Assembly (NCBI GenBank): GCA_028748975.1
Contig: JAQTPI010000009.1
Coordinates: 1 to 42,946, forward strand
From: Patescibacteria group bacterium
Lineage (GTDB): Bacteria > Patescibacteriota > Patescibacteriia > UBA2196
Direction: 5' to 3'
DNA: 42,946 nt
Shown here: piece after piece, positions 8,875 through 34,902 of the stretch
Layout: each line of letters starts with the position of its first letter
How positions within the stretch are numbered: the stretch's first letter is position 1
The notes under the pieces: generated by a model
Told to the model about the DNA's origin: nothing
The model's input: only the letters and a program-made list of their open reading frames with translations
Databases searched by the model: none
Position numbers and translations under genes: made by a program

Positions 8875-9573
8875 ATGCGTTTTGATATAATTACCATCTT
8901 TCCAACCCTCTTTGATTCTTTCCTCAACGAGAGTTTAATCAAAAAATCTGTTGATAAAAAAATCAACCGTTTTTTAATTCATGATTTAAGAAAATGGGCC
9001 AAAGGCAAACACCATCAAGTTGACGATCGGCCGTTTGGCGGCGGCGCGGGGATGGTTTTGATGGCGGAGCCGATCATTAAAGCATTAAAGCATATTAGCA
9101 TTAAAGCATTAAAACATAAAAACAAAATAACAAATAACAAACAACAAATAACAAACAACAAAACACTAACCATTTTACTTTCTCCGGCAGGGAAACAGTT
9201 CAACCAAAAAATGGCGGAAAAATTTTCCAAGTATGACCAAATAATTTTTATTTGCGGGCGCTATGAAGGCATTGACGCGCGGGTGGAAAAATTTGTGGAT
9301 GAAAAAATTTCCATCGGCCCCTATGTTTTAAACGGCGGGGAAGTGGCGGCGATGGTCATGATAGAAGCGGTGGCGCGCTTGCAACCTGGCTTTGTCGGAA
9401 ATTGTGAATCATTAAAAGAAGAAAGTTTTAATAATGATAAAAAAGAATATCCGCAATACACTCGCCCGGAAGTTTTAGCAGTCAATAATAAAAAAATGAA
9501 AGTTCCACCGGTACTAATGTCCGGCGATCACAAAAAAATTAAAGAATGGCGGGAGAAGAATTCTAAAAAATAA
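8875..9573 (+). CDS. trmD: tRNA (guanine-N1)-methyltransferase with in-frame repeat-derived insertion
   Basis: MRFDIITIFPTLFDSF, DDRPFGGGAGMVLMAEPI, ICGRYEGIDARV, GPYVLNGGE, YTRPEV. Confidence 0.95.
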   Translation: MRFDIITIFPTLFDSFLNESLIKKSVDKKINRFLIHDLRKWAKGKHHQVDDRPFGGGAGMVLMAEPIIKALKHISIKALKHKNKITNNKQQITNNKTLTILLSPAGKQFNQKMAEKFSKYDQIIFICGRYEGIDARVEKFVDEKISIGPYVLNGGEVAAMVMIEAVARLQPGFVGNCESLKEESFNNDKKEYPQYTRPEVLAVNNKKMKVPPVLMSGDHKKIKEWREKNSKK

Positions 9574-9680
9574 TTATATGTCATCCCCGCCCCGTATCAA
9601 GTACGGGGTAAACTCCGGCGGGGATCTTACAAAACAATAAAATAAGATTCCCGCTTTCGCGGGAATGACACAGAAAAACA

Positions 9681-9716
9681 AAACCCCCGAGTACTCGGGG
9701 GTTTTTTGATTTTATT
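9681..9716. terminator. Rho-independent terminator (CCCCCGAGTACTCGGGGG + T tract)
   Basis: Perfect hairpin followed by TTTTTT, between convergent trmD and HU. Confidence 0.75.
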
Positions 9717-9728
9717 TTTTTTCAAAAA

Positions 9729-10004
9729 TTATTTCAACGCATCCTTCAAAGTTTTGCCGGCTTTGAATTTGGGAACTTTTACCGCCGCGATCTGGATTTT
9801 TTCCGAAGGATTGCGCGGATTAACGCCGACGCGCGCCGCTCTTTGTTTGGCCGAAAATGTGCCAAAGCCGGTCAGGGCGACTTCCTCGCCTTTTTTCAGT
9901 TCATTGATGACCGTGCCTTCAAAAAGGTTCATGATTTTTTCCACCAGAGATTTTTCCGCGCCGGCTGCTTCAGCCATGGCACTGACGAGTTCGTGTTTAT
10001 TCAT
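9729..10004 (-). CDS. hup: HU family DNA-binding protein
   Basis: MNKHELVSAMAEAAG...GEEVALTGFGTFSAKQRAARVGVNPRNPSEKI. Confidence 0.97.
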   Translation of the reverse strand: MNKHELVSAMAEAAGAEKSLVEKIMNLFEGTVINELKKGEEVALTGFGTFSAKQRAARVGVNPRNPSEKIQIAAVKVPKFKAGKTLKDALK

Positions 10005-10465
10005 AGTTTTTTACGAAGCGCCGATTAATCGGCGCTTAAAATTATTTTTCTTAGTTTAAGTATAGCATACTTTTACTAAATTCCAAATAACAAGCACCAA
10101 ATAACAAACAAATCTCAAATTCTAAATTCCAAATAATAAACGGTTGGCGCGGAGCGCCAATCTTTTAGGATTTAGGATTTGGTGCTTGGAATTTGTTTGT
10201 ATTTTGGAATTTGTGGTTTGGTGCTTGGCGTTTAGCCAGTTGTGGATAACTTTTTGGAAAATAACCAATTTTTTTAGAAATCGGCGGTGGATAATTTTTT
10301 TGAAAAACAGAAGATTTGTCTTGTGGGCGCGGGCGCGGACAAAGCCCGGCGCCTGCGCCCAAAATTTTATTTGGCTAAGGTTAGCACAAAAAAAATCGTC
10401 AAAAAATAACTGAAAATTTTTCTAAAAATCAGCCCGCCAATTAAGATAAATTCCAAGTTTTTCAT

Positions 10466-10494
10466 TTGACTTGATTTTTAAACCATGCTATAAT
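10466..10494 (+). promoter_or_regulatory. Sigma70-type promoter TTGACT-17-TATAAT
   Basis: Near-consensus boxes with 17-bp spacer upstream of the 10.5-11.1 kb structured region. Confidence 0.8.
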
Positions 10495-10500
10495 TAAAGT

Positions 10501-11095
10501 GTAGGCAGGAACTATCCACGCATAGCCGCCTATTAATGGTTCTTTCCGCCATCTTTGAGCGGGCAAAACAAAAACAAAGAGAACATCGATGTTTCCTTTT
10601 AGGAAACAAAAAACCTCTTTACTGTTTTAAACGCTGTATCGACACAGCCGCAAAACAAAAAAACAAAAACAAAACTGTAGGTTTTCATTTCGTGCTGCGA
10701 AATGGAGATATTACAATAAAATGGTAAAAAGGGGTTCCGCTAACATGTCGAATAACGGACACACAAAACTTATAGGTAACAAAATGTAGGATTGAGCACA
10801 CCCGCGCATCTATAAAAAATAGATTTGCAGGCGTGCTCAAGCCTGCTGGACCTATAGGCCTGAGCACTATTTTTCTTAGTGGGTTACAAATAATTTTTTA
10901 ATTGAATCCATTACAGATGATAGTGCTCTTTTATTTGGAAAAAAATTATCAGCTGTTTATTCGGCCTACGCTCCCCAACAACCCTTTAGACGCTCCGGCG
11001 AATAAACTCTTATCTTTTAGAAGATGATAAAAAACAAGAGTTTACCCGCCGGAGTATTAAAAGACCTCCAGGGAACGAAGGCGGGGAAATTAACT
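10501..11095 (+). ncRNA. Candidate large structured non-coding RNA, family unassigned
   Basis: Strong promoter, no convincing ORF, many nested stems (GAGCACTAT/ATAGTGCTC, CTCCGGCG/CGCCGGAG, GTTTCC/GGAAAC, GCTGT/ACAGC and others). Confidence 0.55.
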
Positions 11096-11101
11096 ACCTA
11101 C

Positions 11102-11130
11102 TTGAAACAAAAAATTAGATAGAGTATAAT
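11102..11130 (+). promoter_or_regulatory. Promoter TTGAAA-17-TATAAT for the DksA-like gene
   Basis: Box match and spacing. Confidence 0.7.
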
Positions 11131-11198
11131 ATATAGGTAAGGAAGATAATTAAATTGAAGGGGCAGGTTTGCTGCTTTCTACAATAAAATGGAGTTTT

Positions 11199-11579
11199 AT
11201 GCCGTTAAATAAAACACAATTAAAAGAATTTGAAGAACTTCTAAAAAAACGCGCGGTGGAAATCCGGGCGGATTTATCGGACTTCAGCCATGAAGATAAA
11301 AAAGCCACGGAAAAAAATTTCGTTTCCAATTTTCCCGATTATGGTTCCAGTGAAGATGAGAATGCCCAAGAGGTTTCGGCCTATGAAGACCGGCTGTCAG
11401 TGGAAGGCACGCTGGAAAGGGAATTGCGCGACATTGATTCCTCTTTGAAAAAAATCAAAGAGGGAACTTATGGCGTCTGCAAATATTGCGGCAAAGACAT
11501 TGGCGAAGCGCGTTTGCGCGTGCGGCCTGCATCTTCCGCCTGCGTGGAATGCAAAAAAAAGTTTAAGGGAGAGAAATAG
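11199..11579 (+). CDS. DksA/TraR C4-type zinc finger protein
   Basis: GTYGVCKYCGKDIGEARLRVRPASSACVECKKK; start 11199 preceded by GGAG. Confidence 0.92.
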   Translation: MPLNKTQLKEFEELLKKRAVEIRADLSDFSHEDKKATEKNFVSNFPDYGSSEDENAQEVSAYEDRLSVEGTLERELRDIDSSLKKIKEGTYGVCKYCGKDIGEARLRVRPASSACVECKKKFKGEK

Positions 11580-18921: not shown

Positions 18922-18964
18922 GTGTTTTATTGTGGATAAGTTTTTCAAGAAAAAACCGAAGATT

Positions 18965-33888: not shown

Positions 33889-34902
33889 TCAATTGCCAAT
33901 AATCTCCATCAGTTTCTTTTGATATTTTTCCGCAAACTCGGCGCGGCGATCTACAAGGTGAAATTTTAAAATCTGATCGCTGATAATGACGCCCTGGGTT
34001 TTGTTGGCCAATTCTTTTAATTGTCTGGGCATAATCCAAAGCTGGATTTTCTGATAAAATTTATCCGGCCAAATGGCGGCGAAGAATTGCCAGACTTTTT
34101 TTAGAAATAATCCAACAACCCCTCCCTCCGACCGCTGTCGGAGACCTCCCCTTCGAAAGGGGAGGATAGCGACGACGGTATCCCCTCCTTTCGAAGGAGG
34201 GGTGGCGAGCGAGAGCGAGCCGGGGTGGTTGTTTGGCAGCCATTTTTCCACCCACTCATTTTCTTTTATAAATTTTTCAAAAATTCCGCCGGCATCATAC
34301 AAAGGAATTAAACCTGTAAACCACCAAGTTAAATAGGGGTCGTCAGCCAGTTTTATTTTTTCCAAATTCAAACCGTCTTCGGCTAAGTAAAATGAAAAAC
34401 AAAATTTGTCTCTAATAGTTTTTTTATTCGGGCGCAAATTCAGGATTTTAAAAAATCCGGTGGCAAACCAGCGGGTGGCCCAAATTCTCTTGGGCGCGGT
34501 AATGATTAAAAAATCAATGTCATCTTCGGCTTTGGCATTTTTATAGCCCAAAACATTACAAACAACCACGGCTTTGATAAAAGGTAAAATTCCTAAAAAT
34601 TTGGCTGCTCGTCTGGCGCGTTTTAATTTTCTTTCCGATTCAATGGCGCGTTCTTTTCGTGTCCCAATAATTTTTTCTCTGCCAGGCAGAAAATAGAAAC
34701 TATTTTGATGAATAATTAAATTTTTACTAAGCAACTTTTCTATCTCTGAAAAAATCAGGAGCCTGTCCGCCGGAGCGTTAATGGGTGGCTGAGGAGCGTA
34801 GGCGGACAAATACCAATTAAAAATTTCCTCTTGGGTTAAGGGATATTCAAATAAATCAAACCAAATGATGGTTTTTAGGATGTTTTTGGCAAGTTCGTCC
34901 AT
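33889..34902 (-). CDS. Nucleotidyltransferase-like hypothetical protein with in-frame repeat insertion
   Basis: AEDDIDFLIITAPKRIWATRW; insertion TPPSKGGDTVVAILPFRRGG. Confidence 0.7.
   Translation of the reverse strand: MDELAKNILKTIIWFDLFEYPLTQEEIFNWYLSAYAPQPPINAPADRLLIFSEIEKLLSKNLIIHQNSFYFLPGREKIIGTRKERAIESERKLKRARRAAKFLGILPFIKAVVVCNVLGYKNAKAEDDIDFLIITAPKRIWATRWFATGFFKILNLRPNKKTIRDKFCFSFYLAEDGLNLEKIKLADDPYLTWWFTGLIPLYDAGGIFEKFIKENEWVEKWLPNNHPGSLSLATPPSKGGDTVVAILPFRRGGLRQRSEGGVVGLFLKKVWQFFAAIWPDKFYQKIQLWIMPRQLKELANKTQGVIISDQILKFHLVDRRAEFAEKYQKKLMEIIGN

Follow-up and report, generated by a model that had tools for sequence, protein, structure and literature searches.

Genetic organization and extent of the RNA gene

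The stretch of DNA analysed here (hereafter the window; 42,946 nucleotides) belongs to a 904-kb, 23-contig, 99%-complete Patescibacteria (CPR) genome, designated G000. Across positions 8875-11579 the gene order is trmD, a HU gene on the opposite strand, the RNA described below, a dksA/traR-like gene and lspA; in the relatives G002 and G001 the RNA likewise has a TrmD-like gene before it and dksA after it. An earlier note on this DNA, made from the letters alone, had proposed a large structured ncRNA of about 600 nt driven by a TTGACT-17-TATAAT promoter and lacking plausible ORFs. The promoter was found at 10466-10494 on the plus strand, where it also carries an extended -10 element (TTGACT-17-TGcTATAAT), and it is predicted to be a strong promoter of the sigma-70 type. 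The structured ncRNA was likewise upheld, but its length was not, as the predicted gene occupies only 10501-10937 of the plus strand (~437 nt) and the rest of the proposed region is an adjoining dispersed repeat. The 5' end was placed from the promoter and the 3' end from a terminator hairpin with a U-rich tail, expression of the RNA being likewise a prediction from the sequence, and homologs have matching ends. The helix GAGCACTAT/ATAGTGCTC enclosing TAGTGGGTT/AATCCATTA, listed in the earlier note as one helix among several, does exist, but it proved to be the 3' terminal hairpin and is followed by the U-rich tail, which puts the 3' end near 10937.

The folding energy of 10501-10937 was -141 kcal/mol, compared to -90 ± 6.2 kcal/mol in shuffled sequences (z = -8.2; none of 100 shuffles equalled it), and the longer segment 10503-11102 folded at -191.6 kcal/mol (z = -9.6). 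All of the helices named earlier were present in this region, which folds far better than chance. The only ORF of note, a 63-aa frame at 10536-10727, had no Pfam match and no credible protein was found in the region, in keeping with the earlier claim.

Downstream of the RNA lies a dispersed foldback repeat (10955-11092, no strand assigned) with the make-up CCGCCTnCGCTCC..CGCTCCGGCGGATAAACTC-loop-GAGTTTACCCGCCGGAGTGTTAAAGGAC..GGGAACGAAGGCGGG, which in this lineage has been inserted between the RNA and dksA and is absent from that position in G002. A search of the genome with a 701-bp query returned 12 further full or partial matches, and those listed fell almost wholly within 10955-11092; several cover one arm only, and a half copy is present at 34768-34806. 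The repeat is unrelated to the RNA and may be a small mobile element. The helix CTCCGGCG/CGCCGGAG enclosing AAACTCTT/AAGAGTTT, formerly counted as part of the RNA, forms as claimed but sits in this repeat and so does not belong to the RNA. Beyond the repeat, and also outside the RNA, the DksA/TraR-like zinc-finger gene (PF01258) occupies 11199-11579 on the plus strand, with its own promoter, TTGAAA-17-TATAAT, at 11102-11130.

Architecture of the RNA

All elements of the RNA lie on the plus strand. A 5' variable region (10540-10608) with the hairpins GUUCUU../..GAGAAC and GUUUCC/GGAAAC differs among relatives. It is followed by P2 (10614-10734, in which 10614-10629 pairs with 10717-10734), the central conserved helix, which closes a three-way junction and is supported by covariation; its strands UUUACUGUUUUA (10618-10629) and UAAAAUGGUAAA (10717-10728) were missing from the earlier list of helices. 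P2 contains a near-invariant C-G pair (80 of 81 sequences) followed by a U.G wobble (73 of 81; U10623.G10723 in the window), and the covariance-model match of the window, spanning 10613-10756, scored 85.1 bits. Nested inside P2 are P3 (10633-10648), a hairpin GCUGU-AUCGAC-ACAGC whose loop reads YYGAC in many relatives, an unpaired A-rich linker AAAACAAAAAAACAAAAACAAAA (10650-10674) whose sequence is conserved across the alignment, and P4 (10676-10715), with outer UGUA/UACA and inner CAUUUCG/CGAAAUG helices that are also supported by covariation.

Three further hairpins lie downstream of P2. P5 (10736-10759) is a small hairpin, UCCG..GUCGAAUAA..CGGA. P6 (10769-10858) is long and has an asymmetric internal loop, with AACAAAAUG on the 5' side in the window and CAAAAUCUU in the loop of many relatives; the long-range pair TATAGG/CCTATA, put forward earlier as possible, is real and forms the base of this hairpin. 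Compensatory changes in P6 are seen between the window (5'-CUUAUAGGU/ACCUAUAGG) and G002 (UUCCAU-AGA/UCU-AUGGAA) and also within groups of relatives. P7 (10862-10937) is the terminal hairpin and predicted intrinsic terminator, GAGCACUAU/AUAGUGCUC followed by UUUUAUUU, and homologs have an equivalent GC hairpin and U-run at the 3' end.

P7 was unusually large in most homologs (e.g., L062, L185 and L060), its A/U-rich apical part, CAUUUAUUAAUUUUUUAA..GGG, being conserved, and is more elaborate than a simple terminator. Four loci from another class of the phylum (L165, L172, L173 and L176) carry a variant RNA with additional A-rich linkers and a P3 hairpin conserved as AGCUGUUCUAACCCAGCU, and possibly represent a distinct subfamily.

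Identification of homologs and their distribution

A nucleotide search of 94 relatives gave only low-complexity matches outside the window's own genome, and an exact-pattern search of 144 genomes, with gap limits that were too tight, recovered the window's own genome only. The RNA changes too quickly to be traced by BLAST, so gene order was used. The DksA/TraR-like zinc-finger gene was located in 26 of 27 relatives and the DNA upstream of it was read; many of these syntenic regions contained a folded RNA with AAAACAAAAAUAAAA linkers as well as promoter and terminator sequences. The first homologs were thus found by gene order alone, independently of RNA similarity. Covariance models were built from 8 syntenic sequences (R1), 35 sequences (R2) and 82 sequences (R3). 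R1 matched 96 of 381 genomes of the class at E <= 0.01, and R3, at E <= 0.001, matched 146 of these 381 genomes as well as 47 genomes in a 380-genome sample of the phylum, 40 of them outside the class, with exactly one R3 match in every positive genome. These prevalences are lower bounds, because the models miss clear syntenic members (L020 and L022), and the few matches at 30-35 bits among them could be false. As background, a sample of CPR DNA totalling 800 kb was scored; its one true locus reached 66.7 bits and the runner-up 28.6 bits. One covariance-model match, in G347 (29 bits), appears inside a gene and was rejected as false, and matches below ~33 bits were therefore distrusted. Of 14 pattern matches in named genomes, 10 fall outside Patescibacteria, and these 10 gave no R2 match up to E = 10. 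A phage element was considered and rejected, as phage records held no match and a single pattern match on a viral contig lacked R3 support. Overall, the homologs are 350-550 nt long and single copy and occur across many Patescibacteria genera, a phylum-wide distribution that had escaped the earlier note.

Covariation supports the conserved core

The covariation analysis of homologs suggested in the earlier note gave a strong signal. In the alignment of 82 sequences, a structural alignment fitted, like the other used here, to the model's own helices, 22 of 24 core pairs showed double compensatory changes, 89.7% of cells were paired compared to 70.2% after shuffling, 364 cells were doubly changed compared to 108, and the covariation score was 0.503 compared to 0.192, a value reached in none of 500 shuffles. 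When the helices were slid along the alignment, a control that preserves relatedness, the signal was lost (0.105-0.142, versus ~0.50). A second set gave the same result. Of its 62 loci almost none supplied a row to R2, and a few come from species that appear there under a different locus id. The evidence is weaker in the 3' half than in the core. RNAalifold run on the raw MAFFT alignment gave only 4 pairs, because hairpin lengths differ; a structure-aware alignment was needed. The conserved structured ncRNA is almost certainly real.

DnaA boxes upstream of the promoter

DnaA is the protein that starts DNA replication, and a perfect DnaA box, TTATCCACA (the plus strand reads TGTGGATAA), was found on the minus strand at 10241-10249, 225 nt upstream of the -35 element, together with a one-mismatch box at 10286-10294; neither the box nor its recurrence had been noticed earlier. 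A second perfect box is present in the window at 18931-18939, away from the RNA gene. Among the 96 loci examined, 64 have a perfect TTATCCACA in the 450 nt that precede the core, compared to 0 of 410 control intervals of equal length drawn from the same loci, and 86 have a box with at most one mismatch, compared to 41 of the 410, although the loci are related and the box counts are not independent events. A perfect box is lacking in 32 of the 96. The boxes are biased in orientation (70 versus 12) and usually lie 50-160 nt upstream of the -35 element, versus 225 nt in the window. A second box-like site is enriched at exactly +11 bp (mean 4.5 matches, versus 2.6 ± 0.37 over all offsets), the spacing that DnaA molecules bound next to one another would be expected to produce. 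The arrangement at these loci, consensus boxes upstream of a promoter, is that of a DnaA-regulated gene, and the sequences suggest that transcription of the RNA is probably under DnaA control. Since the perfect 9-mer occurs within 1.5 kb at only 4 of 18 dnaA loci, we infer rather than observe that DnaA reads the box upstream of the RNA, and another factor could do so.

The boxes also bear on a different explanation, that the locus serves mainly as a DnaA-binding site for titration or reactivation, like datA or DARS, with the RNA being secondary. Such a site would fit the strong enrichment of boxes and the secondary boxes that lie at +11 and +20 bp in the same orientation, an arrangement seen in DnaA assembly sites. 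However, the structure of the RNA is itself under selection, most loci have only one or two boxes and a third have no perfect box, making this explanation unlikely.

The RNA as a stand-alone gene

The gene most often found downstream of the RNA is dksA-like (62 of 96 loci), on the same strand, and P7 resembles a terminator as in an attenuator; both observations would suit a riboswitch or attenuator, with the RNA acting in cis as leader of the dksA/traR-like gene. On the other hand, the remaining 34 loci have no dksA in the DNA examined and carry other genes there, which include those for tRNA nucleotidyltransferase, RNase HII, a ComM-like protein, ribosomal protein S2 (rpsB) and SMC (named from the starts of their protein sequences). 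In the window, the dksA-like gene has its own promoter beyond the terminator of the RNA, with the foldback repeat between the two, and a second TATAAT-like site is seen in relatives. A cis-leader would have a conserved linkage to one gene and no promoter of its own; here the downstream genes vary, and a near-consensus promoter, matching at 9 or more of 12 positions when the best upstream site is taken and mostly of the form TTGACN-17-TGnTATAnT, precedes the RNA in 96 of 96 loci. A leader function is thus improbable. Because the downstream genes vary, the RNA is read as a stand-alone gene and not as the leader of one gene, and it is very probably both stand-alone and trans-acting.

Comparison with known RNAs

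The Rfam scan suggested in the earlier note was carried out with Rfam 15. Only three tRNAs in the window reached the gathering score and the sub-threshold matches were unconvincing, and six homologs also gave no family match. The earlier statement that the RNA could not be matched to tmRNA or RNase P RNA was correct: RNase P RNA (RF00010) gave no match at the locus, and ARAGORN found no tmRNA (RF00023) in the window. When RNase P RNA, tmRNA and 6S RNA were searched across genomes, a separate RNase P RNA gene was found in 10 of 12 genomes and a separate tmRNA in 12 of 12, including this one. Both RNase P RNA and the new RNA are present in G001, G002, G003, G004, G005, G006, G008 and G010. The RF00010 search of G000 itself returned no RNase P RNA, though 10 of 11 other relatives have one, so that its copy is either diverged or missing. 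6S RNA (RF00013) gave no match at the locus and none in 12 relatives, an absence that carries little weight because the model recovered no more than 5 of 14 controls.

These searches weigh on the idea that the RNA descends, much altered, from a known housekeeping RNA (RNase P RNA, tmRNA, SRP RNA or 6S RNA). Its size and single copy would be suitable, no 6S RNA was found in the 12 relatives, and CPR bacteria with diverged RNase P RNAs are on record (PMC8172020), while G000 yielded no RNase P RNA. RNase P RNA and tmRNA are indeed of similar length (350-450 nt) and single copy, but both are separate genes in the same genomes (RNase P RNA in relatives that carry the new RNA, tmRNA in all 12), and neither their models nor any sub-threshold Rfam match is convincing at the locus. 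6S RNA, a regulatory RNA of the housekeeping type, is present as one copy, has a promoter to itself and does not depend on the genes beside it, and the new RNA resembles it in copy number, promoter and independence, and putatively in type; however, 6S RNA is ~180 nt and forms one long hairpin with an open-promoter-like bubble, whereas the new RNA is branched and matches neither its sequence nor its model. We consider a diverged housekeeping RNA very unlikely.

The raiA-motif (ModT) RNA has a length of about 200 nt. It is reported as a conserved structured bacterial ncRNA from over 2,500 species (PMC11706538); the new RNA is likewise a conserved structured ncRNA in many species, but raiA-motif RNAs are described there from other phyla, Bacillota among them, and the new RNA has no Rfam match. 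GOLLD, ROOL and OLE are described as large, ornate bacterial RNAs (PMC12286853). The likeness to them proposed earlier extends to size and to nothing beyond it: none of their models matched the locus at the Rfam gathering score, and the new RNA, in contrast, is a chromosomal single-copy gene of Patescibacteria. A TIGR-Tas-like guide RNA was dropped from consideration, as no adjacent effector gene was apparent. CcnA of Caulobacter is an ncRNA tied to cell-cycle control (PMC8959179). It differs in acting upon two master regulators, CtrA and GcrA, and its resemblance to the new RNA would be functional and is hypothetical.

The weakest alternative, that the locus is a replication origin and the RNA an origin transcript, could draw on the DnaA boxes in an AT-rich region and on an RNA lying 7-30 kb from dnaA in G279, G002 and G010, but it was rejected by GC skew and dnaA position and is hardly credible, as the single-contig genome G173 has its GC-skew minimum at dnaA (~210 kb), its RNA lying 185 kb away at 395 kb, and the distance between RNA and dnaA ranges from 7 to 256 kb.

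Proposed function and significance

Our preferred reading, which we hold to be more likely than not, is that the locus encodes a stand-alone structured ncRNA of an undescribed Patescibacteria family that would act in trans and be controlled by DnaA. The RNA would be transcribed from its own sigma-70-type promoter and end at its own terminator hairpin. In its core, the covarying P2 closes the three-way junction of P3 and P4, which are joined by the long unpaired A-rich linker. The RNA would act in trans, and the likeliest form of this is a ribonucleoprotein particle whose RNA component offers the A-rich linker and the conserved internal loop of P6 as binding surfaces. That the RNA works in trans, binds protein and is controlled by DnaA are all steps that we infer. 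DnaA, through at least one box usually 50-160 bp upstream of the -35 element, would control transcription and thereby tie the level of the RNA to replication or growth state. Patescibacteria have lost most classical cell-cycle regulators, and we tentatively suggest, as a possibility we would not put at even odds, that this phylum-spread, DnaA-controlled RNA is a trans regulator coupling chromosome replication to a growth- or host-dependent state. For the tie to replication or growth state, the analogy is with 6S RNA and CcnA, housekeeping regulatory RNAs that tie cell state to global control, although CcnA, to our knowledge, does not form a phylum-wide structured family.

No earlier description of such an RNA was found in the open-access full text searched. 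The large stand-alone bacterial ncRNA is already known as a kind; what is new here is the family, its architecture and the putative link to DnaA. A large share of bacterial diversity belongs to the Patescibacteria, whose genomes are tiny; most are uncultured, and little is known of their regulation. Many of their genera retain the RNA, as one copy, despite extensive losses elsewhere in the genome, and it is therefore probably important and perhaps essential. The covariance model would permit the annotation of RNA genes of this family in existing genomes, and the DnaA boxes, by linking the RNA to replication control, offer a concrete hypothesis that could be tested in cultured members of the phylum, if these carry it.
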